Part shown: positions 13,430 through 30,029 of the stretch, piece by piece | Position numbering within the stretch: the first letter of the stretch is position 1 | How the letters are laid out: each line of letters starts with the position of its first letter | Source: Glaciihabitans sp. dw_435 | Lineage (GTDB): Bacteria > Actinomycetota > Actinomycetes > Actinomycetales > Microbacteriaceae | DNA: 64,000 bases | Direction: 5' to 3' | Assembly: GCF_018449675.1 (NCBI RefSeq) | Contig: NZ_JAAVUZ010000002.1 | Coordinates: 372,001-436,000 of the forward strand | Position numbers and translations under genes: made by a program | The notes under the pieces: generated by a model | What the model was told of the DNA's origin: nothing | Databases searched by the model: none | Seen by the model: only the letters and a program-made list of their open reading frames with translations

Positions 13430-13510
13430 TCTGTGGAGGACACGAGCCAGCCTGTTGTTACCTGGTCGCGGTCCTTCCGGCGGAGCGCTCGCGGGGATAC
13501 CGTCGGGCGT

Positions 13511-13894
13511 ATGGCAAAGCAGATAATCATGACCGCCAACGCGCCGAGTTCGTCGCTCTACAGCCAGGGCGTCAAGGTCGGATCGACGGTATATGTCTCG
13601 GGAATGACCGGAGTTGACCCTGCGACCTCAGAGCTGGCAGGCCCCACGATTGAGCAACAGACGACGCAGGCCCTGCGCAACTGCGAGGCGATCCTCAGAG
13701 CGGGCGGTGGTTCGCTGGATGACGTGGTGCAGGTCACCGTGCTCCTGGCGCACCCCGACGACTTCGCCGGGATGAACGAGAGCTACGCAACGATATTTCC
13801 CTCGGAGCAACCCACCCGCGCGGTCACCAAACTCGGCGTGGATCTGCCGAACGTTCTTGTGTCGGTCATGATGACCGCACATCTTGGTGACTAA
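13511..13894 (+). CDS. RidA/YjgF family protein (enamine/imine deaminase-like)
   Basis: 127 residues from MAKQIIMTANAP. The RidA fold motifs are visible: YSQGVKVGSTVYVSGMTG, QTTQALRNCEAIL, VVQVTVLLAHPDDF, NESYATIF and PTRAVTKLGVDLP. The family removes reactive enamine intermediates, but this copy lacks the standard C-terminal arginine motif in canonical form (it has TRAVTK, with the arginine). An upstream in-frame extension of 26 codons is not RidA-like, so ATG 13511 is chosen. Convergent with the lipoprotein gene at 13906, with only 11 bp between them and no visible terminator. Confidence 0.88.
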   Translation: MAKQIIMTANAPSSSLYSQGVKVGSTVYVSGMTGVDPATSELAGPTIEQQTTQALRNCEAILRAGGGSLDDVVQVTVLLAHPDDFAGMNESYATIFPSEQPTRAVTKLGVDLPNVLVSVMMTAHLGD

Positions 13895-14736: not shown

Positions 14737-15092
14737 GCACTTAGCCTCGCATCCGATGCTGCGTAGAGCTGGCGAGAGTGCCGGACGTTGGCTGGCACCC
14801 TGCTGAATGCGAGTGGATGTCACGGCCCGCGGCTTAACGAGAGGGGCGGCGCCTATTGGGGGGAACAGGCGCCGCCACAGCGGCGTCGGATTGGGGGGAA
14901 TCGCTTGACGCCGCGTCGTCAAATTTGCATTTGACGGGTTCGATAGTACCCCTAAAGGAGGACGCGGTGCCAGATGTTTGCACCACGGATATTGCGGATT
15001 CGAAGCCCACTTTCAGGCTCGGTCTAGGATCGGATTATTCAACGAGGAATCGTGCACTTTTGAGGCACGGAGCGAGACAAACAAGGATGACA
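14737..15092. promoter_or_regulatory. acs upstream region with palindrome and hairpin
   Basis: This 356-bp stretch separates the divergent lipoprotein and acs genes. It holds (1) an inverted repeat GGCGGCGCC (14845-14853) / GGCGCCGCC (14868-14876), whose loop contains TTGGGGGGAA; (2) a second TTGGGGGGAA at 14891-14900; (3) the palindrome GTCAAAT-TTGC-ATTTGAC at 14918-14935; and (4) a strong ribosome binding site AAAGGAGG (14954-14961) placed 5 nt before a GTG (14967) in frame with acs. The palindrome looks like a regulator site; no matching regulator gene is adjacent. Confidence 0.5.
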
Positions 15093-17057
15093 ATGCCCAC
15101 GAATTCGATTGACAGCCTGCTACGCGAGACCCGGCGATTTGCGCCCGCAGAGGACTTCAGTTCGAACTCCGTGACTCCCCCGGACATCTACGACCGGGCC
15201 GCGGAAGACCGCGTTGGCTTCTGGGCCGACACCGCCCGCGAACTCCTGCACTGGCACTCCCCCTTCACAGAGACCCTCGACTGGTCAAATCCCCCATTTG
15301 CGAAATGGTTCGCCGACGGCAGCATCAACGTCGCTTATAACTGTCTTGACCGGCACGTGATCGCCGGCAATGGCGATCGCGTCGCACTGTATTGGGAGGG
15401 CGAAAATGGCGATACCGCGCGCATCACCTACGCGGAACTGACCGGGGAGGTCAAGAAGGCCGCGAATCTGCTCACCTCGCTCGGGGTGCAGCAGGGTGAT
15501 CGCGTTGCCATCTATCTGCCGGTGATTCCCGAGGCCGTCATCGCCATGCTCGCGGTTGCCCGCATCGGCGCGGTGCACTCGGTCGTGTTTGGAGGCTTCA
15601 GCTCGGAGAGCCTTCGCTCGCGCATCGATGACGCCAGCGCCAAGCTCGTGATCACCGCGGACGGCGGATGGCGCAAGGGCAAGGTCTTCCCGCTCAAGGC
15701 GGCGGTCGACGGGGCGCTGGCGAACGGCACCTCCACCGTCGAGCACGTACTCGTCGTGCAGCGCGGACACAACGATGTCGAGTGGACCGAGGGTCGCGAC
15801 CTCTGGTGGCACGACGAGATCGTCGCAATGGACGCCGATCACGAGGCGCAGGGGTTCGAGGCGGAAAATCCGCTCTTCATCCTCTACACCTCGGGCACAA
15901 CCGGTAAGCCCAAGGGCATCCTGCACACCAGCGGCGGCTACCTGACCCAGGTCGCGTTCACGCACAAGCACGTGTTCGACCTGCACCCGGAGACCGACGT
16001 GTACTGGTGCACGGCCGACGTGGGCTGGATCACCGGTCACAGCTACGTCGTCTACGGTCCGCTGGCCAACGGTGCGACCCAGGTGCTGTACGAGGGAACC
16101 CCGGACACCCCGCACCAGGGACGCTGGTGGGAGATCGTGCAAAAGTACGGCGTCACGATCTTCTACACGGCACCGACGGCGATCCGCTCGTTCATGAAGA
16201 TCGGACGGCAGATTCCGCAGCAGTTCGACCTGTCGAGCCTGCGCCTGCTCGGGTCGGTGGGCGAGCCGATTAACCCGGAGGCGTGGATCTGGTACCGCGA
16301 CATCATCGGCGGCGGCGAGACGCCCATCGTCGACACGTGGTGGCAGACGGAGACCGGCGCGATCATGATCTCGGCCCTGCCCGGGTTGACGACGCTGAAG
16401 CCGGGTTCGGCGCAGGTTCCCATCCCGGGAATCAAGATCGACATCCTCGGTGAGGATGGCACGCGGGTAGACCCGCCGCACGGAGGACTGCTCGTCGTCT
16501 CCGAGCCGTGGCCGTCGATGTTGCGCGGCATCTGGAATGACCCCGACCGCTTCATCGAGACGTACTGGTCGAAGTTCTCCACGCCCGAGAAGTACAAGTA
16601 CTTCGCCGGCGATGGCGCCCACGTCGATACCGACGGTGACATCGTGCTGCTCGGACGTGTCGACGACGTGATGAACGTCTCCGGTCACCGCCTCTCGACC
16701 CAGGAGATCGAATCGGCCCTCGTGTCCCACCCGATCGTGGCCGAGGCGGCCGTCGTGGGAGCCGAAGACGAAGCCACCGGCCAGGCAGTGGTGGCATTTG
16801 TCATCATCAAGTCGAACCAGCAGGACGCCCAGACGGCAACGGAGGCAAGCGCGCTCCTGCGCCAGCACGTGTCCGAGCAGATCGGCGCGATCGCGAGGCC
16901 CCGCCAGGTCTTCATCGTCGCCGAGCTTCCCAAGACCCGGTCGGGCAAGATCATGCGGCGGCTGCTGCAGGATGTCGCGGAGGGACGCGAAATCGGCGAC
17001 ACCACGACTCTTGCCGACACCTCCGTTATGCAGATCATCAGCGACAAGCTCAAGTAG
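15093..17057 (+). CDS. acs: acetyl-CoA synthetase (acetate-CoA ligase)
   Basis: 654 residues from [10 protein letters not shown] with AAGGA 5 nt upstream. A full-length ANL-family enzyme: AMP-binding motif [11 protein letters not shown], the acetate pocket region [30 protein letters not shown], and the C-terminal [11 protein letters not shown] whose lysine (about residue 618) is the usual acetylation site. Makes acetyl-CoA from acetate, ATP and CoA. A GTG at 14967 with a stronger ribosome binding site would add 42 residues not typical of the family. In Mycobacterium acs also lies between the Tad genes and ponA2. Confidence 0.95.
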
Positions 17058-17133
17058 CCCCGGAAGCCGGCCGAGGGGCGGGGCCGACTACGTAAAGGAC
17101 GGAGACACACCCCTCGGTTCGGCACCCAGCGAC

Positions 17134-17152
17134 GGGGAAACGCGCGTTCCCC
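17134..17152. promoter_or_regulatory. near-palindromic element before the first PBP gene
   Basis: GGGGAA at 17134-17139 and TTCCCC at 17147-17152 flank ACGCGCG, forming a near-perfect inverted repeat 16 bp upstream of the PBP start at 17169. It may be an operator or a hairpin that affects translation. No thymine run follows, so it is not a typical terminator. Confidence 0.25.
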
Positions 17153-17168
17153 GGGTTACCGTCGGTCC

Positions 17169-19745
17169 ATGAGATCTCAACGACCTCGGGGGGTTTGGTC
17201 GGCGATCGGCTCCGTCCTCGGTTTTCTGTTCTTCAGCGTGCTCGCGGGCGGCCTGGTCGCCGTCATGATCGCGCCCGCGGTCGCCGGCGGCAGCCTCGTG
17301 GTGTCGAGCTCCATCGGTGTGTTCGACAGCCTGCCCACGTACATCGAGATCAACGCCCAGGCACAGCAGAACAGGATCTTCGCGACCAAGGGTGGAAAGC
17401 CCGTGCAGATCGCGACCGTCTACAACCAGAACCGTCAGGAAGTCACGCAGGACCAGGTTTCCCAGTTCGCCCTGGATGCCGCGGTCAGCGGCGAGGACAG
17501 CAGGTTCTACGAGACCGGCGGCATCGACGTGCAGGGTCTCGTGCGCGCGGCCGTGCACAACATCGCCACCGGCACCGCGGACGAGGGCGCGTCGACGATC
17601 ACCCAGCAGCTGGTGAAGAACATCCTGATCCAGCAGGCACTCACGCTTCCCACTCCCGAGGCGCGCAAGGCAGCGCTGCACCAGGCAGCCGGCGCGACCC
17701 CCGACCGCAAGCTGCGCGAGATGAAGCTCGCCATCGCGATGGACAAGAAGTACACCAAACCGGAAATCCTGCTGGCGTACCTCAACATCGCCGGATTCGG
17801 CGGCAACACCTACGGCATCCAGGCCGCCGCCGAGCAGTTCTACAACACCGACGCCAAGCACCTCACCGTTGCCCAGTCCGCCAGCCTCATTGCCATCGTG
17901 CAGCACCCCGAGACCCGTAGCCTGGACGACCCCGCCAACTACGTGAACAACCAGACCCGACGCGACTACATCATCACCGCCATGTTCACCGACGGAAAGA
18001 TCACCCAGGCCCAGCGCGACGAAGCGCTCGCCACTCCCGTCGACAAGACCACGGTGACGATCACCGAGCCCCGCAACGGCTGCAGCTACGCCCTCAAGTA
18101 CGCGAAGTACTTCTGCGACTACATCCAGAAGAGCGTCAAGGACCTCACCGCCCTCGGCGCCACCCCCGCCGAGCGCGCCGAGAACTGGCAGCACGGCGGC
18201 TACGACGTGTACACGACCCTCGACTACGACCTGCAGACCGTCGCCCAGCAGACCAGCTGGGCACTGGCGCCTGCCAAGGAAACCAAGCTGAAGCTCGGCA
18301 GTTCCACCGTCTCCGTGGAGGTCGGCACCGGTCGCATCCTCGTGATGGCGCAAAACACGCAGTTCGACGACACCGGGCAGACCTCGGGCCGCTCCGTGAC
18401 ATCCGTCAATTTCTCCACTGACAAGGCGTATGGCGGGTCCGGCGGCTTCCAGCCCGGCTCGACCTACAAGCTCTTCACCCTGATCAACTGGCTGCAAAAC
18501 GGGCACGGCATTAACGAATCGGTGGATGGCTCGCCCCGCACAGTCCCGCAGGCGTCGTTCAAGGATTCCTGCGGGGGCCCGTGGGTGGGTTCCTACAAGT
18601 TCGGCAATGACGAGGCAAGCGAAGTCGGCCAGTTCACGGTGGCGCGCGCCACCCAGAAGTCGATCAACGGTGCGTTCGTCTCGATGGCGCTGGAGCTCGA
18701 CCTCTGCGATATCGCCAACACGGCCCGCTCACTCGGGGTGCACCGCGCCGACGGTGATCCCCTGAAGACCAACCCGTCGTCGGTGCTCGGCATCAACGAG
18801 GTTGCCCCGATCTCGATGTCCGCGGCGTACGCCGGCATCGCCAACAGCGGCACCTTCTGCAGCCCCATCGCGGTCGACAAGATCGTCGGGCCCGGCGGAG
18901 TTGCCCTCCCCGGCCAGAACGCGAACTGCCACACGGCGATCGATTCGGACGTCGCGGACACCGCGGCCTACGCGATGGCCGGCGTGGTCACCGGCGGCAC
19001 CGCCCGCAAGGCCGACCCGCACGATGGCACCGTGCACATCGCCAAGACCGGAACCACCGACGCATCCAACCAAACCTGGATCGTCGGCGCCAGTCGCAAG
19101 GTCTCCACCGCCGTCTGGGTGGGCAACATCTCCGGGTTCGTGCCGCTGCGCAGCACCCTGACGAACGGGGCGTGGGGATCCGACATCCGTCACGACATCT
19201 GGCGCACCACGATGCTCGCGATTGACAAGAAGTACAAGGGTGGCGCCTTCCCGCCGCCGGCGACCGCCCTGCTCAAGGGGTCCGGCGTCACGGTGCCACA
19301 GCTGGCCGGCCAGAAGGTCGAGACCGCCACCGCGCAACTGCAGGTGCTCGGCTTCACCATCACCGTCGCCGGTAAGACCAAGTCGGCGCTGCCCTACGGC
19401 ACTGTGGTGCGCAGCACTCCCGCCGCCGGTGCGCTGGCTTCGCGCGGCGCGGCCATCACCGTCGTCACCAGCGACGGATCCCTCAACACCATGCCGAACC
19501 TGGTCGGATTGAGATTTGCGGATGCCGCGGCGGTGCTCACCTCGGACGGCTTCCTGAACGTCAGCGAGGAGTGCGTGCCCCTGGCCAAGTCGGGTGGGGC
19601 GAAGGATGGGACCGTGGTGTCGTCCAACCCCGCAGCCAGCAACTCCGTGACATCCGCCGACCTTATTGTTCTGCGGGTCGCACGCTCTGTCTGCACACCG
19701 TCAACCGCAACGCCGACGCCACCGACAGCGCCGCCCGCCGGATAA
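17169..19745 (+). CDS. class A penicillin-binding protein with PASTA domains (ponA2-type), copy 1
   Basis: 858 residues. One N-terminal membrane helix (about residues 12-38); GT51 glycosyltransferase domain with SGEDSRFYETGGID, STITQQLVKN and REMKLAIAMDKKYTK; transpeptidase domain with STYK, SIN and KTGT motifs; then two PASTA repeats and a Pro/Thr-rich tail. In GT51 motif 1 (ED-x2-F-x2-H-x-G) the histidine position is threonine, while the catalytic glutamate is kept. A bifunctional cell-wall synthase is expected, but glycosyltransferase activity may be altered. First of three paralogues in the region. Confidence 0.93.
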   Translation: MRSQRPRGVWSAIGSVLGFLFFSVLAGGLVAVMIAPAVAGGSLVVSSSIGVFDSLPTYIEINAQAQQNRIFATKGGKPVQIATVYNQNRQEVTQDQVSQFALDAAVSGEDSRFYETGGIDVQGLVRAAVHNIATGTADEGASTITQQLVKNILIQQALTLPTPEARKAALHQAAGATPDRKLREMKLAIAMDKKYTKPEILLAYLNIAGFGGNTYGIQAAAEQFYNTDAKHLTVAQSASLIAIVQHPETRSLDDPANYVNNQTRRDYIITAMFTDGKITQAQRDEALATPVDKTTVTITEPRNGCSYALKYAKYFCDYIQKSVKDLTALGATPAERAENWQHGGYDVYTTLDYDLQTVAQQTSWALAPAKETKLKLGSSTVSVEVGTGRILVMAQNTQFDDTGQTSGRSVTSVNFSTDKAYGGSGGFQPGSTYKLFTLINWLQNGHGINESVDGSPRTVPQASFKDSCGGPWVGSYKFGNDEASEVGQFTVARATQKSINGAFVSMALELDLCDIANTARSLGVHRADGDPLKTNPSSVLGINEVAPISMSAAYAGIANSGTFCSPIAVDKIVGPGGVALPGQNANCHTAIDSDVADTAAYAMAGVVTGGTARKADPHDGTVHIAKTGTTDASNQTWIVGASRKVSTAVWVGNISGFVPLRSTLTNGAWGSDIRHDIWRTTMLAIDKKYKGGAFPPPATALLKGSGVTVPQLAGQKVETATAQLQVLGFTITVAGKTKSALPYGTVVRSTPAAGALASRGAAITVVTSDGSLNTMPNLVGLRFADAAAVLTSDGFLNVSEECVPLAKSGGAKDGTVVSSNPAASNSVTSADLIVLRVARSVCTPSTATPTPPTAPPAG

Positions 19746-19837
19746 CGTTCCGGCGAGACCATTCGGCCGAGGTATACAACCTGGTCGATATACGTCGCTG
19801 GGATGAGGCGCGGGAGGACGTCACTCACTAGCGTGAA

Positions 19838-22372
19838 GTGATGAAGAACTCTCAACGATCACGTGGTGCCGGGTCGGCGCTTGGCGCGCTGCTGGGGCTG
19901 TCGGTATTCAGCGTGATTGCGGGCGTACTCGTCGCGGTGCTGGTCGCACCCGCGATGGCCGTCAGTAGCGCCGCGGCGTCGAGCACCATCGACATCTTCG
20001 ACAGCCTTCCGTCGTACATCGAGATCAATGCGCAGCCACAGCAGAACCGGATCTTCGCGACGAAGAACGGTAAGCCCGTGCAGATCGCGACGGTTTACGA
20101 CCAGAACCGGCAGGAAGTGGCCTGGGACGAGGTCTCGGAGTTCGCCCTGGACGCCGCGGTCAGCGGTGAGGACCGCCGGTTCTTCGAGACCGGCGGCATC
20201 GACGTGCAGGGTCTGGCGCGCGCAACGATCCACAACCTGGCGACCGGCACCGCCGACGAGGGAGCGTCGTCGATCACGCAGCAGCTGGTGAAGAACATCC
20301 TCATTCAGAAGGCGCTGACGCTGCCCACGAAGGCCGAGCGCAAGGTCGCGCTCCAGCAGGCGGCGGGGCCCACCCCCGACCGCAAGATCCGGGAGGTCAA
20401 ACTCGCGATCTCGATGGACAAGAAGTACACCAAGCATGAGATCCTGCTCGCATACCTCAACATTGCGGGGTTCGGCGGCAACACCTACGGCATCCAGGCG
20501 GCGGCCGAGCAGTTCTACAACACGGACGCGAAGCACCTGACGGCGGCGCAGGCGGCGAGCCTCATTGCGATCGTGCAGCACCCCGAGACCCGCAGCCTCA
20601 ACGACCCCGCGAATTACCCCGAGAACAAGGAACGCCGTGACGTGATCCTCGGCTGGATGCTCGCCGAGGGCAACATCACGCAGGCGCAGCACGATGAGGC
20701 GGTCGCCACACCGGTCGACAAGACCACCGTCACCATCACCGAGCCTCGCAACGGGTGCACCTACGCGAGCAAGTACGCGAAGTACTTCTGCGATTACATC
20801 CAGAAGAGTGTGAAGGACCTCACCGCCCTCGGCGCGGATCCCGAAACCCGGGCCGAGAACTGGAAGCACGGCGGCTACGACGTCTACACGACCCTCGACT
20901 ACGACCTGCAGACGGTCGCGCAGAAGGCGAGTTGGGAGCTGGCGCCCGCCAGCGAGACGCGCCTGCGCCTCGGGAGTTCGACGGTGTCCGTGCAGGTCGG
21001 AACCGGCCGCATCCTCGTGATGGCGCAAAACACGAAGTTCGACGACACCGGCGAGACATCAGGCCGCTCCGTGTCATCCGTCAATTTCTCCACCGACAAG
21101 TCCTACGGCGGGTCCGGCGGTTTCCAGCCGGGCTCGACCTACAAGATCTTCACGCTGCTCAACTGGTTGCAGAACGGCCACGGCATTAATGAATCGGTGG
21201 ATGGCTCGGGGCGCACGGTCTCGCAGTCCACGTTCTCCGACTCCTGCAACGGCCCGTGGACCGGCCCCTACACGTTCGGCAACGACGAGGCCGGGGAAAA
21301 GGGCTCGTACACCGTCGCCGCGGCCACTGCGAAGTCGGTCAACGGTGCCTTCATCTCCATGTCGCTGCAGCTCGACCTCTGCGAGATCGCCAAGACGGCC
21401 AAGTCGCTCGGGGTGCACCGCGCCGACGGCGACCCGCTCGAGACCCGGCCCTCCTCGGTGCTCGGCGTGAACGAGGTTGCCCCGCTCACGATGTCCGCGG
21501 CGTACGCCGGCATCGCCAGCGGCGGAAAGTACTGCAGCCCCATCGCGGTGGACAAGGTCATCGGCCCCGATGGCGCCACCCTCCCCGGCCAGGACGCAAA
21601 GTGCCACCGTGCCCTCGAGTCGAGCGTCGCCAATACCGCCGCCTACGCGATGGCGAGCGTCATGACCGGCGGCACCGGCGGCCAGTCCAACCCCAACGAC
21701 GGCACGCCCCACATCGGCAAGACCGGAACGACCGACGAGTCCAACCAGACCTGGATGGTCGGGGCGAGCCGCAAGGTGGCCACCGCCGTCTGGGTCGGAA
21801 ACGTCTCGGGGCACGTGCCGCTGCGCAGTTACCTCTCGAACGGCTCCTACGGGGCGACGATCCGGCACAATATCTGGCGCACCACGATGCTGGAAGTCGA
21901 CTCGAAGTACCCCGGCGGCGCTTTCCCGCCGGCGGCATCCGCTCTCCTCAAAGGCTCCGGCATCACCGTGCCGAATTTGGCGGGCCTGACGCTTCCCGAA
22001 GCCACCGCGCAGCTCAAGGGCCTCGGCTTCACGCTGACCGTCACCGACCAGATCTCGTCGGCGCTGCCCGCCGGGTCGGTCGTGCGCAGCTCCCCCGGCG
22101 CCGGAACCATCGCCTCCCGCGGCTCCGCTATCAGCGTCGTCACGAGCAACGGCAAGCTGGCAAAGATGCCAAAGGTGGTCGGGTTGCAATTTGCGGATGC
22201 CTCGGGCCGCCTGTCTGCGGCCGGCTTCACCACCATCTCGGAGCTCTGCATCCCCCTCGCGCCCAGCAACGCGGCCCGTGACGGCTATGTCGTCGCGAGC
22301 AGCCCGGGCTCCGGTCGCACCGTGAAGCGCACGGATCACATCGGGCTCAGCGTGGGCCGCACCGCCTGCTAG
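19838..22372 (+). CDS. class A penicillin-binding protein with PASTA domains (ponA2-type), copy 2
   Basis: 844 residues if GTG 19838 is used, 843 from the adjacent ATG 19841. Domain order is the same as in copy 1: membrane helix, GT51 domain, transpeptidase with STYK, SVN and KTGT, and two PASTA repeats. It shares with copy 1 the altered motif SGEDRRFFETGGID, again threonine where the motif-1 histidine is expected, so the change predates the duplication of these two. Only 92 bp separate it from copy 1. A strong terminator follows at 22388. Confidence 0.93.
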   Translation: MMKNSQRSRGAGSALGALLGLSVFSVIAGVLVAVLVAPAMAVSSAAASSTIDIFDSLPSYIEINAQPQQNRIFATKNGKPVQIATVYDQNRQEVAWDEVSEFALDAAVSGEDRRFFETGGIDVQGLARATIHNLATGTADEGASSITQQLVKNILIQKALTLPTKAERKVALQQAAGPTPDRKIREVKLAISMDKKYTKHEILLAYLNIAGFGGNTYGIQAAAEQFYNTDAKHLTAAQAASLIAIVQHPETRSLNDPANYPENKERRDVILGWMLAEGNITQAQHDEAVATPVDKTTVTITEPRNGCTYASKYAKYFCDYIQKSVKDLTALGADPETRAENWKHGGYDVYTTLDYDLQTVAQKASWELAPASETRLRLGSSTVSVQVGTGRILVMAQNTKFDDTGETSGRSVSSVNFSTDKSYGGSGGFQPGSTYKIFTLLNWLQNGHGINESVDGSGRTVSQSTFSDSCNGPWTGPYTFGNDEAGEKGSYTVAAATAKSVNGAFISMSLQLDLCEIAKTAKSLGVHRADGDPLETRPSSVLGVNEVAPLTMSAAYAGIASGGKYCSPIAVDKVIGPDGATLPGQDAKCHRALESSVANTAAYAMASVMTGGTGGQSNPNDGTPHIGKTGTTDESNQTWMVGASRKVATAVWVGNVSGHVPLRSYLSNGSYGATIRHNIWRTTMLEVDSKYPGGAFPPAASALLKGSGITVPNLAGLTLPEATAQLKGLGFTLTVTDQISSALPAGSVVRSSPGAGTIASRGSAISVVTSNGKLAKMPKVVGLQFADASGRLSAAGFTTISELCIPLAPSNAARDGYVVASSPGSGRTVKRTDHIGLSVGRTAC

Positions 22373-22387
22373 CCGTCCGCAGACGCA

Positions 22388-22421
22388 AAAGGCCGGGCCG
22401 CACCACGCGGACCCGGCCTTT
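22388..22421. terminator. bidirectional intrinsic terminator
   Basis: AAAGGCCGGG (22388-22397) and CCCGGCCTTT (22412-22421) form perfect 10-bp arms around a 14-nt loop. A/T bases at both outer edges allow function in both directions. It lies between the convergent second PBP gene and the RidA-family gene. Confidence 0.85.
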
Positions 22422-22433
22422 ACGCAGGGGTTA

Positions 22434-22901
22434 TCAGGCGAATTCGAAGACGAACTCGATCTCGACCGGCGAATCCAGGGGCAGGACGGTCAGCCCCACG
22501 GCGCTGCGGGCGTGCTGGCCCGTCTCCCCGAAGATCTGGCCGAGCAGCTCGGACGCTCCGTTAATAACACCGGGCTGGCCGGTGAAGGACGGGTCGGATG
22601 CCACGAACCCGACGACCTTCACGACGCGGGTGATGCGGTCCAGCGACCCGATGACACTCTTGGCCGCCGCGAGCCCGTTGAGCACGCAGATGGCGGCGAG
22701 GGCTTTCGCGTCCTCGGCGGAGACTCCGTCGGCGGCGCCTACCTTGCCGCTGTGGGAGAGGGCGCCTTTGACGAACGGCAGTTGCCCCGAGGTGAATACG
22801 AGGTTGCCCGTGATGACGGCGGGAACGTACGCGGCGACGGGAGCCGCGACATCCGGCAATTCGATTCCGAGCTCTGCCAGACGCTCATCGATGCGGCTCA
22901 T
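22434..22901 (-). CDS. RidA family protein (YjgF, larger subgroup)
   Basis: 155 residues with VITGNLVFTSGQLPFVKG, a central helix AAICVLNGLAAAKSV, RITRVVKVVGFVASDP and the C-terminal HARSAVGLTVLPLDSPVEIEFVFEFA. The family member keeps an arginine (ARSAVG) at the usual active-site region. Its ATG overlaps the stop of a 54-residue DUF4177-type gene by 4 nt, so the two form an operon. It interrupts the PBP series on the opposite strand; the exact substrate is unknown. Confidence 0.88.
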   Translation of the reverse strand: MSRIDERLAELGIELPDVAAPVAAYVPAVITGNLVFTSGQLPFVKGALSHSGKVGAADGVSAEDAKALAAICVLNGLAAAKSVIGSLDRITRVVKVVGFVASDPSFTGQPGVINGASELLGQIFGETGQHARSAVGLTVLPLDSPVEIEFVFEFA

Positions 22902-23062
22902 GATGCGTCCGCGTTCGTCTGGCGCTTCATGTAGGCGACCAATCCGCCCTCGGGGCCGACGACGATTTGCACCAGTTCCCAGCCCTCGGAGCCCCAGTTA
23001 TTGAGGATGGCTGAGGTCGCGTGAATCATCAGCGGGGTGGTCAAGTATTCCCAGGTGGGCAT
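22898..23062 (-). CDS. DUF4177-like small protein
   Basis: 54 residues read directly from the minus strand: MPTWEYLTTPLMIHAT, then SAILNNWGSEGWELVQIV and VGPEGGLVAYMKRQTNADAS. The pattern W-E-Y ... L-N-x-W-G-x-x-G-W-E-L-V ... AYxKR is the DUF4177 signature. Its stop overlaps the ridA start by 4 nt (ATGA), supporting a real, coupled gene. It is divergent from the third PBP gene, 53 bp away. The function of the family is unknown. Confidence 0.85.
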   Translation of the reverse strand: MPTWEYLTTPLMIHATSAILNNWGSEGWELVQIVVGPEGGLVAYMKRQTNADAS

Positions 23063-23115
23063 TTGTGGGCCTTCATTCAGCTTGAGTTCGGCGTTGATCG
23101 CTTACCCTTGATTCT

Positions 23116-25662
23116 ATGTCTGCCCAAAAACCCCGATCCGGAAGTGTGCTCGCGGCGCTTCTTGGCACCCTCGGCTTCAGCGTTCTTGCCGGTCTTCTGG
23201 TGGCCGTGATGGTCACACCGGCCATCGCCATCACCGGAGCCACGGTCAACAGTTCCATCGGCATCTTCGACAGCCTGCCCAGCTTCATCGAGATCGACCA
23301 GCAGCCTGAGCAGAACCGAATCTTCGCGACGAAGGACGGCAAGCCGTACCAGATCGCCACCATTTTCGACCAGAACCGCGAAGAAGTGACCTGGGACAAC
23401 GTCTCGGATGCAGCGAAGGATGCCGCGGTCAGCGGTGAAGACAAGCGCTTCTACGAGCACGGTGGAGTGGACATCCAGGGCATCATTCGCGCGGGCGTCG
23501 GCAACCTGTCGGGCAAGGAACTGCAGGGTGCATCCACGATCACCCAGCAGGTCGTCAAGAACATCTACGTTCAGCAGGCGCTGGAGAAGGACACGGCCGA
23601 GGAGCGTACGAAGGCGTACAACGAGGCAGTCTCCCCCAGCATCGAGCGCAAGCTGAAGGAAATGAAGCTCGCGATCTCGTTGGAGAAGCAGTACTCCAAG
23701 CAGCAGATTCTGCTGGCATACCTCAACATCGCGTTCTTCGGCGATAACGCATACGGCATCCAGGCAGCTGCCGAGCACTACTTCAGCGTTTCCGCAAAGG
23801 ATCTGACGGTGACCCAGGCCGCGAGCCTCATCGCCATCGTGCAGGAGCCGTCCACGCGAAGCCTGCAGGACCCGGCGAATTACCCCGCAAACCTCGTGCG
23901 CCGTGACTTCATCATCAACTCGATGTACACGGACGGCAAGATCACCGCTGCCGAGCGCGACACCGCCCTCGCCGCCAAGCTCGACAAGACGACGATCAAG
24001 ATCTCGGATCCCCGCAACGGCTGTATCTCGGCGAACAAGTACTCCAAGTTCTTCTGTGATTACGTGCGTCAACTCGTCAAGGACCTGCCCGCCTTCGGCG
24101 CCAATGCCACCGAACGCGCGGCGAACTTCAAGCGCGGTGGGTACGACATCTACACCACGCTTGACGTCAACCTGCAGACCGTGGCCACCAAGGCGAACCA
24201 GAAGTACGCCCCCAATGACTACGCCCAGCTGAAACTGGGTAGCTCGACCGTCTCGGTCGAGGTGGGCACCGGACGCATCCTGGTCATGACCGAGAACAAG
24301 GTCTTCAACGACACCGAAAAGGGTGGCGGCAAGACCGCAACCGCCGTCAACTTCTCCACCGACAAGGCATACGGAGGCTCGAGCGGATTCCAGCCCGGAT
24401 CGACGTACAAGCCCTTCACCCTTCTCACCTGGCTCAAGGCCGGGCACGGCCTGAACGAGTCGGTCAACGGCTCGGGCCGCACCGAGGCTGCCTCCAGCTT
24501 CACCGACTCCTGCACCCCCGGTGGGTGGGGCGGTCCGTTCACCTTCAAGAACGATGACAGCCGCGGCGGACAGATGACCGTCGCCACCGGAACGCAGTAC
24601 TCGGTCAACGGTGTCTTCGTCTCCATGGCGTTGAAGCTCGACCTCTGTGACATCCGCAACACCGCACAGGCGTTTGGCGTCCACCGTGCCGATGGAACCC
24701 CGCTGCAGACCAACCCGTCGTCCGTCCTCGGAACGAACGAGGTCGCCCCGCTGACCATGGCCGCCGCGTACGCCGGCATCGCCAACAGCGGCATGTACTG
24801 CGCACCGATCGCCGTCGACAAGATCATCGGACCCGACGGTAAGGAACTGGCCGGCCAGGCACAGACCTGCAAGCAGGCAATCGATGCGGATGTCGCGAAC
24901 ACCGCAGCCTTCGCGATGCAGAAGGTCATGACGGCCGGTACCGGTACCGCCTCGAACCCGTACGACGGTGTCGAGTACATCGGTAAGACGGGAACCACTG
25001 ACGACTCGGTTCACACGTGGATGGTCGGAGCAAGCCGCAAGGTTGCCACCGCCGTCTGGGTGGGAAACATCTCGGGCAAGGTCCCGCTGCGAAGCGTGTA
25101 CACCGCCTACGGTCAAACCGCCGTCATGCGACACCAGATCTTCAAAACCGTGGCAACGGCCATCGACAAGGTCTCGAAGTACCGGGGCGGCGACTTCCCC
25201 AGTGCCACGGCGTCGATGCTCGTGGGCTCGGGCGTAAAGGTGCCCTCGTTGAGTGGTAAGAGCTACGACTACGCAAAGTCTGTGCTCGAGGCATCCGGCT
25301 TCAAGGTCAAGAATGGTGGCACCGTCACCTCCTCGGTTTCCGAGGGCGACATCGCCAAGAGCAGCCCCTCGTCGGGCACCCTGGTGTCGCGCGGTGACGA
25401 GGTGACGATCTACACCTCCAACGGCCAGCTCACCTCGATGCCGAACATCGTCGGCGACGGGCAGCAATCCGTCGATTCCGCCCAGGCGACGCTCTCGGGA
25501 GCAGGCTTCACCTCGATCAAGACCCAGTGTCAGACGCTCGCCGCGGGCGATGCCGGTCGTGACGGCAAGGTCGTCGGGTCCAACCCCACGGCCGGAAAGT
25601 CGCTGCGATACGACAACAACGTGACGATCTTCTACGGCTCGCTCGACTGCTCCAAGCCGTAA
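23116..25662 (+). CDS. class A penicillin-binding protein with PASTA domains (ponA2-type), copy 3, likely the ancestral one
   Basis: 848 residues. Same architecture as the other two copies, but GT51 motif 1 is canonical (SGEDKRFYEHGGVDIQG, with the histidine). Transpeptidase motifs are STYK, SVN and KTGT; two PASTA-type repeats end in VTIFYGSLDCSKP. The next gene, a metallophosphoesterase, starts within its stop codon, the arrangement known for ponA2 and Rv3683 in Mycobacterium, so this is probably the ancestral copy. It synthesises and cross-links peptidoglycan at the outer face of the membrane. Confidence 0.94.
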   Translation: MSAQKPRSGSVLAALLGTLGFSVLAGLLVAVMVTPAIAITGATVNSSIGIFDSLPSFIEIDQQPEQNRIFATKDGKPYQIATIFDQNREEVTWDNVSDAAKDAAVSGEDKRFYEHGGVDIQGIIRAGVGNLSGKELQGASTITQQVVKNIYVQQALEKDTAEERTKAYNEAVSPSIERKLKEMKLAISLEKQYSKQQILLAYLNIAFFGDNAYGIQAAAEHYFSVSAKDLTVTQAASLIAIVQEPSTRSLQDPANYPANLVRRDFIINSMYTDGKITAAERDTALAAKLDKTTIKISDPRNGCISANKYSKFFCDYVRQLVKDLPAFGANATERAANFKRGGYDIYTTLDVNLQTVATKANQKYAPNDYAQLKLGSSTVSVEVGTGRILVMTENKVFNDTEKGGGKTATAVNFSTDKAYGGSSGFQPGSTYKPFTLLTWLKAGHGLNESVNGSGRTEAASSFTDSCTPGGWGGPFTFKNDDSRGGQMTVATGTQYSVNGVFVSMALKLDLCDIRNTAQAFGVHRADGTPLQTNPSSVLGTNEVAPLTMAAAYAGIANSGMYCAPIAVDKIIGPDGKELAGQAQTCKQAIDADVANTAAFAMQKVMTAGTGTASNPYDGVEYIGKTGTTDDSVHTWMVGASRKVATAVWVGNISGKVPLRSVYTAYGQTAVMRHQIFKTVATAIDKVSKYRGGDFPSATASMLVGSGVKVPSLSGKSYDYAKSVLEASGFKVKNGGTVTSSVSEGDIAKSSPSSGTLVSRGDEVTIYTSNGQLTSMPNIVGDGQQSVDSAQATLSGAGFTSIKTQCQTLAAGDAGRDGKVVGSNPTAGKSLRYDNNVTIFYGSLDCSKP

Positions 25663-26630
25663 TGGCTCACTCCATCGGCAAGGCCGCTGTCTCCACGCTC
25701 GGCGTGGCGGCAGCGGCCGGCGTGGCCGCCTTCGCGTACGGAGCTCTCGTCGAGCGCAAGGCGTTCACGGTGCGACACGAGACCCTTCCCGTGCTCGATC
25801 CCGGCGCACGTCCCCTGACAGTCCTGCACCTCTCCGACCTCCACATGGCACCGTGGCAGGTCGACAAGCAGGAGTGGGTCCGTTCGCTGACGGTTTACGA
25901 GCCCGACCTCATCGTCAACACCGGCGACAACCTCGGCCACGTCGAGGGACTTGCGGGCGTCGAGTACGCCCTCGAGCCCTTCCGTAACGTCCCAGGCGTC
26001 TTCGTGTACGGCTCGAACGACTATTACGGCCCCACGCCCAAGAACCCGCTGAAATACTTCATGGCGCCCAGCTCGCACGCTCCCAAGCAGGCGAAGCTCG
26101 ACGTCGAGGGCCTCACAAGTTTCTTCGAGGACTCCCTCGGCTGGCTCGACCTCAACAACCTCTCCCGCGCGATGCTCATCAAGGGCTCCCGTCTCGAGTT
26201 CTTCGGAACCAATGACGCGCACCGCCAGTGGGACCGTCTCGACCGCCTCCCCGGAGCGATCGACGAGATGCGCGAAAATGTGGCGTGGGTGGATGACACG
26301 GCCGGCCCCGACGTCGTCAGCATCGGTGTTACCCACGCCCCGTACCAGCGCGTTCTCGATGCCTTCGTCACCTACGGCGCCGACGTGATCTTCGCCGGAC
26401 ACACCCACGGTGGACAGGTTCGCGTACCCGGTTTCCCGGCTCTCGTCACCAATTGCGACATTCCGCGCGACCAGGCCCAGGGCCTTTCGCTGTGGAATCA
26501 CGCGCAGAGAACCGCGTATTTGAACGTCTCTGCGGGCCTCGGAACCTCGATCTACGCGCCCGTTCGGTTCGCGGTTCCGCCCGAAGCCGTCGTAGTGACG
26601 TTAACCGCTCGAGATATCAGCTATTCTTGA
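25662..26630 (+). CDS. metallophosphoesterase (YkuE/Rv3683-like)
   Basis: 322 residues. Calcineurin-like motifs in order: LHLSDLHMAP (D-x-H), NTGDNLG (GD), VYGSNDYYGP (the GNHD position reads GSND), GVTHAPYQ and FAGHTHGGQVR. An N-terminal hydrophobic segment (about residues 8-28) suggests membrane anchoring. Start ATG shares its A with the PBP stop TAA (TAATG), so translation is coupled. The conserved pairing with a ponA2-type PBP suggests a role at the cell wall, for example on a lipid-linked phosphate; this is inference. Confidence 0.9.
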   Translation: MAHSIGKAAVSTLGVAAAAGVAAFAYGALVERKAFTVRHETLPVLDPGARPLTVLHLSDLHMAPWQVDKQEWVRSLTVYEPDLIVNTGDNLGHVEGLAGVEYALEPFRNVPGVFVYGSNDYYGPTPKNPLKYFMAPSSHAPKQAKLDVEGLTSFFEDSLGWLDLNNLSRAMLIKGSRLEFFGTNDAHRQWDRLDRLPGAIDEMRENVAWVDDTAGPDVVSIGVTHAPYQRVLDAFVTYGADVIFAGHTHGGQVRVPGFPALVTNCDIPRDQAQGLSLWNHAQRTAYLNVSAGLGTSIYAPVRFAVPPEAVVVTLTARDISYS

Positions 26631-27524: not shown

Positions 27525-30029
27525 ATGAGTACAAGCTTCGGAGCTCCCGCGATTATGACCCAGAACATCGGCATGCGCCGGCGCCAATTTGGTGCCGACC
27601 GGACGACCACAGCCCTCCCCTCCGTGCACCCTCGACCGAGCGATGGAAAACTCGTGCGTGGTCGCCTCGCGATCATCCTGACCATCGTTTTCTGGGTGCT
27701 CTATGTCGTCGACACGATCATTCGCCAGTTCTTCAACCCTCAGGGCGTGAACTACACGTTCGCGGTGCAGGCCTTCTCGTACCTCGCGATCGTGACGGTG
27801 CTGATCTTCTCCGCCCTCATGTACCTGATCGCCCGGCAGGGTGCCTTCACCCGGTTCCGCGACCACCACCGCGTTCCGCGTGCGGCCCTCGATCACCACT
27901 TCGGTGCCGGCCACGGCGACCTGACCGTGCTCGTGCCGTCCTACGCCGAGGAGCCGTCCGTCGTCCGCGCAACGCTGTGGTCCGCCGCGCTGCAGGAGTA
28001 CCCGTCCATGCGCGTCGTGCTGCTGCTGGACAACCCGCCGCACCCGACCGACCCCACCGAAATCAGCAAGCTCGCCGAGAGCCGCGGCATCGCCGACGAG
28101 ATCGCCACCGCGATGGCCGTCCCCGAACGACGCTTCCGCGAGGCGATGGAACTCTTCGAACGCGAGATCAACGCCGGCAGCGGCGAGGTGTCCGGCGACG
28201 CCGTGCGCCGCCTCGCCGCGCACTACCGCTGGGCGGCCCGCTGGCTGAGCAGCCAGGCGTACAGCGACGGCGCTCTCGACCACGTCGCAACGTTCTTCGC
28301 CACCGAGGTCGTCGGCGGCCTTGCCGACGAGTTCACCCTCTTCGCCACCGCCCTCGACGCCTCCGCCTGGGACGAGCTCGCCCCCACCCCCAAGCGCATG
28401 CTCGAACTGCACCGCCGCCTGGTCTGGGTCTTCACCGCCGAGATGGACACGTTCGAGCGCAAGGCATTCACCTCGCTCTCCCACGAGGCGAACAAGGCGA
28501 TGAACCTCAACGCCTACATCGGTTTGATGGGCCGCAGCTTCCGCCGGGAAGACGACCGCACCAGCAGCGTGCTGTGGGAAGTGGATGACCCGAGCCAGGC
28601 AAACTTCTCGGTGCCGGATTCCGAGTACCTGCTCACCCTCGACGCCGACTCACTCCTGCTCAAGGACTACTGCCTTCGCCTGATCTACTTCCTCGAGCAG
28701 TCCGAGAACTCCCGCGTTGCCGTCACCCAGACGCCGTACTCCTCGTTCCGCGGGGCGCCCACCCGCATCGAGCGTCTCGCCGGTGCGACCACCGACGTGC
28801 AGCACATCCTCCACCAGGGCATGTCGCACTTCGGTGCTGCCTTCTGGGTCGGGGCCAACGCGGTCATCCGCAAGCGCGCCCTCGAAGACATCGTCGAGAT
28901 CGAGACCGTCGGTGGATTCGAAGTCCGCCGCTACGTACAGGACCGCACCGTCATCGAAGACACCGAGTCGAGCATCGACCTCGGCGTCTACGTACAGGAC
29001 CGCACCGTCATCGAAGACACCGAGTCGAGCATCGACCTCGGCGCCCACGGCTGGAGCCTGATCAACTATCCGGAACGCCTCAGCTACAGCGCGACGCCGC
29101 CGGACTTCGGATCCCTCGTGGTGCAGCGCCGGCGCTGGGCCAACGGTGGCCTGCTGATCCTGCCGAAGCTCATTCGCCAGATCAAGGCCCGCCGCAACAC
29201 CCCGCACCCCGTGACCCTCATGGAGCTCAGCCTCCGGCTGAACTACGTGGCGTCGATCGCGTGGGCAAGCTTCGGCCTCGTACTGCTGCTGGCCTACCCG
29301 TACAACAGCCGCCTGCTCAGCCCGATCGTGCTGCTGGCCTCCCTGCCCTACTTCATCGCAATGGGCAGCGACCTCCGCTACAACGGCTACCAGTTCCGCG
29401 ACATCTTCCGGATCTACGGCTTCAACCTCATCCTGCTTCCGGTCAACCTTGCCGGCGTCGTCAAGTCGCTGCAGCAGGCGATCACCGGCAAGCGCATCCC
29501 GTTCGCCCGCACGCCCAAGGTCGCCAACCGCACGGCGTCCCCGATCCTCTTCGTGGTGGTGCCCCTGGTCATCGTCGCGTTCTCCGGTCTTACCCTGTGG
29601 CGCAACATCGACGCGCAGAACTGGGGCAACGCGTTCTTCGCCGGCTTCAACGCCACCCTGGCGATCATCTCGATCGTCTCCAACATCGGCATCGTCAACA
29701 CCCTCGTGGACATCTGGCTCGGCCTCACCGACTGGCTCTGGGTCGACCGCCGTCGCGACAGCCCGCCCGTGCAGGCCACCCAATCCGTCGCAACGCCGCA
29801 CCTCGACTGGCAGACGGTTCTCTATTACGGCAACGCGAGCTTCACCCCCGAGGGTGCGCAGGCTGTGCTCGAAGTGCCGAAGCGCACCGCCTTCGCCACC
29901 GTCACGCGGCACACCCTCGACTCACCATCCGTGCGCATTACCCCGCCGAGCCCCGATCACCCGAGTTGGACACCATCAGCCTCACACCACGAATCCCAGG
30001 ACGCGACGCACACGGAGGTCAGCGCGTGA
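27525..30029 (+). CDS. membrane GT2 family glycosyltransferase (cellulose/chitin synthase-like)
   Basis: 834 residues. Two N-terminal membrane helices (about residues 46-68 and 80-105), a cytoplasmic GT-A domain with LTVLVPSYAEEP, the D-x-D motif YLLTLDADSLLL, the acceptor motif IEDTESSIDLG and the product-channel motif QRRRWANGG, then about five C-terminal helices. About 170 helical residues are inserted between the first strand and the DxD motif. The ED motif is duplicated: residues 470-488 are repeated at 489-507 by a 57-bp in-frame tandem repeat. Processive synthesis and export of a beta-linked glycan is expected. It is coupled to a GH18-type gene by a 4-nt overlap. ATG 27555 is an alternative start. 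Confidence 0.88.
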   Translation: MSTSFGAPAIMTQNIGMRRRQFGADRTTTALPSVHPRPSDGKLVRGRLAIILTIVFWVLYVVDTIIRQFFNPQGVNYTFAVQAFSYLAIVTVLIFSALMYLIARQGAFTRFRDHHRVPRAALDHHFGAGHGDLTVLVPSYAEEPSVVRATLWSAALQEYPSMRVVLLLDNPPHPTDPTEISKLAESRGIADEIATAMAVPERRFREAMELFEREINAGSGEVSGDAVRRLAAHYRWAARWLSSQAYSDGALDHVATFFATEVVGGLADEFTLFATALDASAWDELAPTPKRMLELHRRLVWVFTAEMDTFERKAFTSLSHEANKAMNLNAYIGLMGRSFRREDDRTSSVLWEVDDPSQANFSVPDSEYLLTLDADSLLLKDYCLRLIYFLEQSENSRVAVTQTPYSSFRGAPTRIERLAGATTDVQHILHQGMSHFGAAFWVGANAVIRKRALEDIVEIETVGGFEVRRYVQDRTVIEDTESSIDLGVYVQDRTVIEDTESSIDLGAHGWSLINYPERLSYSATPPDFGSLVVQRRRWANGGLLILPKLIRQIKARRNTPHPVTLMELSLRLNYVASIAWASFGLVLLLAYPYNSRLLSPIVLLASLPYFIAMGSDLRYNGYQFRDIFRIYGFNLILLPVNLAGVVKSLQQAITGKRIPFARTPKVANRTASPILFVVVPLVIVAFSGLTLWRNIDAQNWGNAFFAGFNATLAIISIVSNIGIVNTLVDIWLGLTDWLWVDRRRDSPPVQATQSVATPHLDWQTVLYYGNASFTPEGAQAVLEVPKRTAFATVTRHTLDSPSVRITPPSPDHPSWTPSASHHESQDATHTEVSA
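28931..29043 (+). repeat. 57-bp tandem duplication inside the GT2 gene
   Basis: Positions 28931-28986 and 28988-29043 are identical over 56 nt, at a period of 57 nt. The unit encodes YVQDRTVIEDTESSIDLGV, so the reading frame is preserved and the catalytic ED motif occurs twice. The complete identity, including third codon positions, implies either a very recent event or an assembly artefact. Confidence 0.95.

Follow-up and report, generated by a model that had tools for sequence, protein, structure and literature searches.

The motif-1 histidine of the glycosyltransferase (GT) domain is a consensus but not a universal feature of class A PBPs, and the GT motifs of these enzymes were reportedly the subject of a mutational study by Terrak et al. 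in 2008. In the accessible part of a report on S. aureus MGT (PMC6053601), the histidine is listed as a conserved residue of the peptidoglycan glycosyltransferase pocket; the deep conserved pocket of MGT is lined by His107 together with Asp101, Gly109, Asp111, Lys153 and residues of motif II (Thr133 and Gln136 among them), a phosphate group of bound moenomycin is held at His107-Leu112 by motif I backbone atoms, and Asp101Asn and Gln136Glu are cited as abolishing polymerisation. Neither a mutant of the motif-1 histidine nor a reported assay of a Thr-type GT51 enzyme was found in the literature searched for them, as far as the accessible text of those sources extends. Thr, Asn, Asp or Glu is found at this position in other class A PBPs.

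The window analysed here is a 64,000-nucleotide stretch of the genome of Glaciihabitans sp. dw_435, in which three class A PBP genes are arranged with their neighbours as follows.

14856..17057, plus strand: acetyl-CoA synthetase (acs), marking the left end of the interval that contains copies 1 and 2
17169..19745, plus strand: copy 1, class A PBP (GT51, transpeptidase and two PASTA stretches), 858 aa, motif 1 EDSRFYETGG
17514..17516, plus strand: Thr codon ACC of copy 1 (residue 116) at the motif-1 His position
19838..22372, plus strand: copy 2, class A PBP with PASTA, 844 aa, motif 1 EDRRFFETGG, motif 2 GASSITQQ
20189..20191, plus strand: Thr codon ACC of copy 2 at the motif-1 His position
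20270..20272, plus strand: Ser codon TCG of copy 2 replacing the motif-2 Thr
22434..22901, minus strand: RidA/YjgF family gene separating copies 2 and 3; it is the upstream gene conserved at the resident PBP locus
23116..25662, plus strand: copy 3, class A PBP with PASTA, 848 aa, motif 1 in its canonical form EDKRFYEHGG, occupying the conserved locus of the family
23458..23460, plus strand: His codon CAC of copy 3 in motif 1
25662..26630, plus strand: metallophosphoesterase, the conserved gene next downstream of copy 3

The original prediction had described three tandem PBPs, the first two with Thr and the third with His in motif 1. The three genes are present and the residues were confirmed by the open reading frames and by the codons ACC, ACC and CAC, but the array is not strictly tandem, the minus-strand RidA gene lying between copies 2 and 3. 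The reading frame of copy 2 starts with GTG followed by ATG. Copies 1 and 2 are 74% identical and share ACC, which is two base changes from CAC, and the same residue is found in independent genomes; a sequencing error is very unlikely given this divergence and the recurrence of Thr in other species, and an origin of the Thr in sequencing, assembly or alignment can be given next to no credence.

PF00912 (GT51) and PF00905 (transpeptidase) were detected in all three copies by Pfam scan, each with two C-terminal stretches of PASTA (PF03793). In a 22-sequence alignment, the catalytic motif-1 Glu (E109), which the original prediction had said to be kept, is invariant together with its Asp, the second motif-2 Gln, the motif-3 Lys and the motif-3 Glu (E184). 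The transpeptidase motifs SxxK, SxN and KTG (S431/K434, S498/N500 and K626-G628) are likewise invariant, and thus intact as predicted. The source genome (3.71 Mb, 50 contigs, 99.99% complete) was found to encode three GT51 proteins, which are copies 1-3, five proteins with transpeptidase domains including these three, and two SEDS proteins. A scan of 16900-23300 for promoters and terminators gave no promoter and one terminator-like site, against 3.6 expected.

All three genes probably encode functional, bifunctional, PASTA-bearing class A PBPs of the ponA2 type, copies 1 and 2 being descended from an old Thr paralogue in which the motif-1 variant would be tolerated. The observed basis of this reading comprises the sequence, the locus, a phylogeny of modest weight against the alternative, the constraint seen on the GT domain when copies 1 and 2 are compared, and the recurrence of the substitution. 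The GT activity of copies 1 and 2 may be non-essential, since two SEDS polymerases are present.

The GT domains were compared at the sites that are near-invariant in 40 His-type Microbacteriaceae PBPs. Copies 1 and 2 deviate non-conservatively only at the motif-1 histidine, and copy 2 also carries the motif-2 change T to S (GASSITQQ instead of GASTITQQ), which the original prediction had missed. The conservative changes (copy-1 numbering) are L191M, Y224F and L269I, the last occurring in copies 1 and 3 and not in copy 2. Counted from the catalytic Glu, the residue matching the motif-1 His position is His107 of S. aureus MGT; the equivalents of Asp101, Gly109 and Asp111 are kept in copies 1 and 2, and copy 2 changes the equivalents of both His107 and Thr133. 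Pfam GT51 scores were 162 and 156 bits for copies 1 and 2 and 178 for copy 3, a drop that extends beyond the GT domain, since the transpeptidase scores were lower too (57 and 58, against 81 for copy 3). For copy 1, an AlphaFold model (mean pLDDT 72.6; 84 for residues 111-120) was matched by Foldseek to S. aureus PBP2 in its moenomycin-bound form (2olv; TM 0.68, by target length) and to E. coli PBP1b, these being whole-protein matches that carry no local geometry at the Thr.

Substitution rates were estimated by Nei-Gojobori counts, with GC bias making all dS values rough. Between copies 1 and 2, a comparison that leaves out the stem branch on which the His changed, the GT domain is under stronger constraint (identity 0.81, dN/dS 0.19) than the transpeptidase (TP) domain (identity 0.76, dN/dS 0.34). 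The dN/dS values for copy 1 against copy 3 were 0.37 (GT) and 0.33 (TP), and those for copy 2 against copy 3 were 0.57 (GT) and 0.37 (TP); the latter comparison, which rests on a low dS (0.56), goes against the preferred reading of working enzymes. For reference, copy 3 gave GT 0.31/TP 0.37 and GT 0.34/TP 0.27 against its two syntenic genus-mates, and against one genus-mate copy 1 gave GT 0.43/TP 0.47 and copy 2 gave GT 0.41/TP 0.41. Five His-type pairs (four of genus-mates, one a tandem pair of another genus) ranged over 0.06-0.26 (GT) and 0.09-0.25 (TP), and three Thr pairs of Curtobacterium gave GT 0.12/TP 0.25, GT 0.18/TP 0.17 and GT 0.38/TP 0.36.

These values bear on a rival reading: GT activity would be weak or absent in copies 1 and 2, whose main role, alongside copy 3 and the SEDS polymerases, would be that of transpeptidases or scaffolds. 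This reading would be in keeping with the GT dN/dS of copy 2 against copy 3 (0.57), with the two SEDS proteins, with the presence of His in 119 of the 126 sampled Actinomycetota GT51 stretches described below, and with the altered motif-2 Thr of copy 2, whose equivalent lines the same pocket in S. aureus MGT, two other residues of that pocket being reported as needed for activity in the accessible text of PMC6053601. Against this, the remaining near-invariant GT sites are either unchanged or conservatively changed, the GT domain is the more constrained one between copies 1 and 2, and other lineages retain Thr together with the GT motifs, so that weak or absent polymerase activity is regarded as improbable. 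Decay of the GT domain was rejected as a candidate on the retained sites and the copy 1-copy 2 dN/dS, and the reduced activity suggested in the original prediction is unsupported on these grounds and by the replacement of the histidine elsewhere.

The constancy of the histidine was surveyed at several scales. In a set of 50 distinct Microbacteriaceae rows, most of them best matches to copy 1 and so not a random draw, His was read in 43 (copy 3 included) and Thr in six, one row being unreadable; the six Thr rows are the two window copies and four of the genus Curtobacterium (g32). In 49 other Actinomycetota genomes, 126 GT51 stretches, including a few contig-end fragments and two rows of one genome that are possibly one gene counted twice (L293 and L307, both His), gave His 119 times, Asn three times, Asp three times, Glu once and Thr not at all. 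The claim that the histidine is nearly constant thus stands for the family sample and for Actinomycetota, but not for the Lactococcus genomes examined. The pattern F[FY]xTGG[IV]D was matched in nine of 398 family genomes, in PBPs of the window genome and of four genomes of g32; in the other four (G012, G272, G313 and G375; L043 and L049-L051) no match lay in a PBP.

A scan with ED..F[FY].T.G.D of one genome per species across 84,980 GTDB species, from which the records of the window's own genome were possibly left out, gave 109 stretches, in 50 of which a simple regular expression found motif 2 in frame. A home-made profile assigned 59 of the 109 as Thr-type GT51 rows, of which L084 was dropped (no recognisable motif 2 or 3) to leave 58, and L057, which ends after motif 1, was retained, its motif 1 being that of L121. 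The 58 rows comprise Curtobacterium (15), Lactococcus (11, plus two related bins), Chloroflexota (14), Levyibacteriota (five), bins of other candidate phyla (three), other Actinomycetota (four) and rows of doubtful or scattered label (four), and are a lower bound because the scan pattern requires the remainder of motif 1. Row L159, labelled Bordetella parapertussis, is of doubtful label, since it comes from a metagenome bin and its motifs are almost those of the Acidobacteriota row L127; row L103, labelled 'Proteobacteria', is similar to L115 and L141, both actinomycete rows. A rough tree of the GT domain, built after thinning the family rows, weakly supported outside the main groups and holding few His-type outgroups from other phyla, gave at least seven changes between Thr and other states. 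Judged from these sequences, Thr has arisen repeatedly in place of the motif-1 His in enzymes that appear otherwise intact. The existence of many active class A PBPs with Thr, which the original prediction had named as evidence against itself, is approached by the recurrence of Thr, Asn, Asp and Glu in other, putatively active class A PBPs.

At the locus, the order RidA (opposite strand), PBP and metallophosphoesterase was found in 13 of 20 family loci, with acs within 1.5 kb of RidA in 11 of those 13; the remaining seven comprise three Thr copies of Curtobacterium and four additional copies in the genus-mates. The resident gene of this conserved acs-RidA-PBP-metallophosphoesterase locus is copy 3, which keeps its ancestral neighbour, as had been claimed. 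In the two genus-mates the acs-RidA interval measures approximately 7.0 kb and 4.2 kb and contains other DNA, with no PBP match; it is short in most relatives and filled by unrelated open reading frames in both genus-mates (L163:5721-12697; L166:228-4398), for which reason it looks like a variable spot. Tandem PBP pairs located after RidA and before the metallophosphoesterase were seen in three genomes of other genera (L169, L175 and L176), with His in all copies. Two further observations were made nearby. A second protein that looks RidA-like by its sequence is encoded upstream of acs (13433-13894), and a gene for a family 2 glycosyltransferase (27525-30029) contains a 57-bp tandem unit in nearly two full exact copies (28931-29043; 100% matches, in frame) repeating YVQDRTVIEDTESSIDLG, which is either a real microduplication or an assembly artefact.

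A tree of 52 proteins was computed with the motif-1 residue masked. Copies 1 and 2 are sisters (support 100/100), copy 3 groups with PBPs of the genus-mates (96/95) and all ten are joined at 98/98, the split of copies 1 and 2 from copy 3 preceding the divergence of the genus-mates' PBPs. A single clade for the three window copies was modestly rejected (AU p = 0.025). On this tree the Thr state requires two changes, one in the window lineage and one in Curtobacterium, across whose species Thr is kept, and a single derived His-to-Thr change shared by copies 1 and 2 is supported. From the topology and the AU test, these copies look like an old paralogous lineage that was later duplicated, with modest support against the alternative. 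They had been proposed as derived duplicates: their Thr is shared and derived, but the tree and the AU test argue against recent offshoots of copy 3, and the same modest evidence counts against a recent duplication of copy 3 as their source. Transfer of a Thr copy from Curtobacterium was rejected on its 46-48% identity to all three copies and on its separate branch. In the genus sample of three genomes (the window genome and two genus-mates), the genus-mates showed only His among GT51 genes with readable motif 1 (eight read, one unreadable).

Under the preferred reading of functional enzymes with a tolerated variant, an old paralogue between acs and RidA would have changed its motif-1 His to Thr once and would then have been duplicated in tandem to give copies 1 and 2. 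At the motif-1 turn a phosphate group would be held by the backbone, so that Thr (elsewhere Asn, Asp or Glu) could take the place of His, and the chemistry would be left to the catalytic Glu and the other residues of motifs 1-3. A small polar side chain should be tolerated here if the backbone accounts for most of the binding. The Thr enzymes would then polymerise lipid II, and the extra copies may serve a dosage or condition-specific role.

In Curtobacterium, seven genomes were read, each with one Thr-type PBP; a His-type was readable in all seven and a Glu-type in six. The third, Glu-type class A PBP (L328-L333) carries EDPRFYDEGG and similar in motif 1 and GGSSITQQ in motif 2. The His-type PBP of Curtobacterium flaccumfaciens Sample7_18 (G451; L334/L336) is found in two pieces in different frames, through either a frameshift or an assembly error. 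The Thr-type PBP (15 named records) resembles the window copies in having ETGG in an extra paralogue beside a His-type PBP. It differs from them in its independent origin on the tree, in its sequence (44-48% identity to the window copies), in its motif 2, which is mostly GGSTLTMQ, in having no PASTA columns aligned in the four proteins checked, and in its position, which adjoins neither acs, RidA nor the metallophosphoesterase in the three loci checked.

Lactococcus PBP1A is like copies 1 and 2 in carrying Thr at the motif-1 position of a class A PBP, but is 22-24% identical to the window copies and has strep_PBP1A as its best NCBIfam model, below cut-off. In a draft L. cremoris genome (G447), for which completeness is not given and a fourth GT51 is possible, three GT51 proteins were found, none with His: PBP1A has Thr, and PBP2A and PBP1B have Asn (L317, L308 and L327; named by best NCBIfam models, each below its curated cut-off). 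Three of the four GT51 proteins of L. garvieae were readable, as Thr, Asn and Asn, and pneumococcal PBP1b (PDB) has His at the matching position. Strain NZ3900, an MG1363 derivative, is taken here to belong to L. cremoris. Bocillin labels all six PBPs of this strain (as L. lactis NZ3900), PBP1a included, which therefore binds penicillin (accessible part of PMC5965867).

Both genera bear on the further reading that Thr retunes the motif-1 pyrophosphate-binding pocket (for substrate form, processivity, control or moenomycin binding), copies 1 and 2 being specialised polymerases beside a His-type copy. It would fit the occurrence of both Microbacteriaceae Thr lineages, in the window and in Curtobacterium, as extra paralogues in genomes that also have a His-type PBP, the presence of a g32 genome with His at the conserved locus (L180), and the location of the residue in the moenomycin-contacting pocket of S. 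aureus MGT (accessible text of PMC6053601). In the L. cremoris genome, however, no His-type partner was found for the Thr-bearing PBP1A, and no non-conservative co-varying GT change was found; such specialisation is considered unlikely. A broader proposal, also of low probability in our estimation, is that replacement of the motif-1 His by Thr, Asn, Asp or Glu defines a recurrent natural GT51 class with a retuned pyrophosphate pocket, found in Microbacteriaceae in duplicated PBPs beside a His-type partner, and which in Lactococcus may have taken every class A PBP. If this were true, the 'conserved' histidine would be a control or specificity residue and not part of the catalytic core. Natural enzymes without the His, with the L. 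cremoris genome (0/3 found with His), offer a direct way to ask the purpose of the residue, and the window provides a clean pair-plus-outgroup in one genome, with two Thr copies and one His copy. The interest lies in these natural enzymes, able to test the job of the histidine, more than in the array itself.

Of the described systems, the actinobacterial ponA2-type class A PBP has the domain order and the catalytic motifs of the window copies. Its neighbours RidA and metallophosphoesterase, as seen in the family, are found at copy 3 only; copies 1 and 2, between acs and RidA, differ from this type by Thr for the motif-1 His and by their position across RidA.
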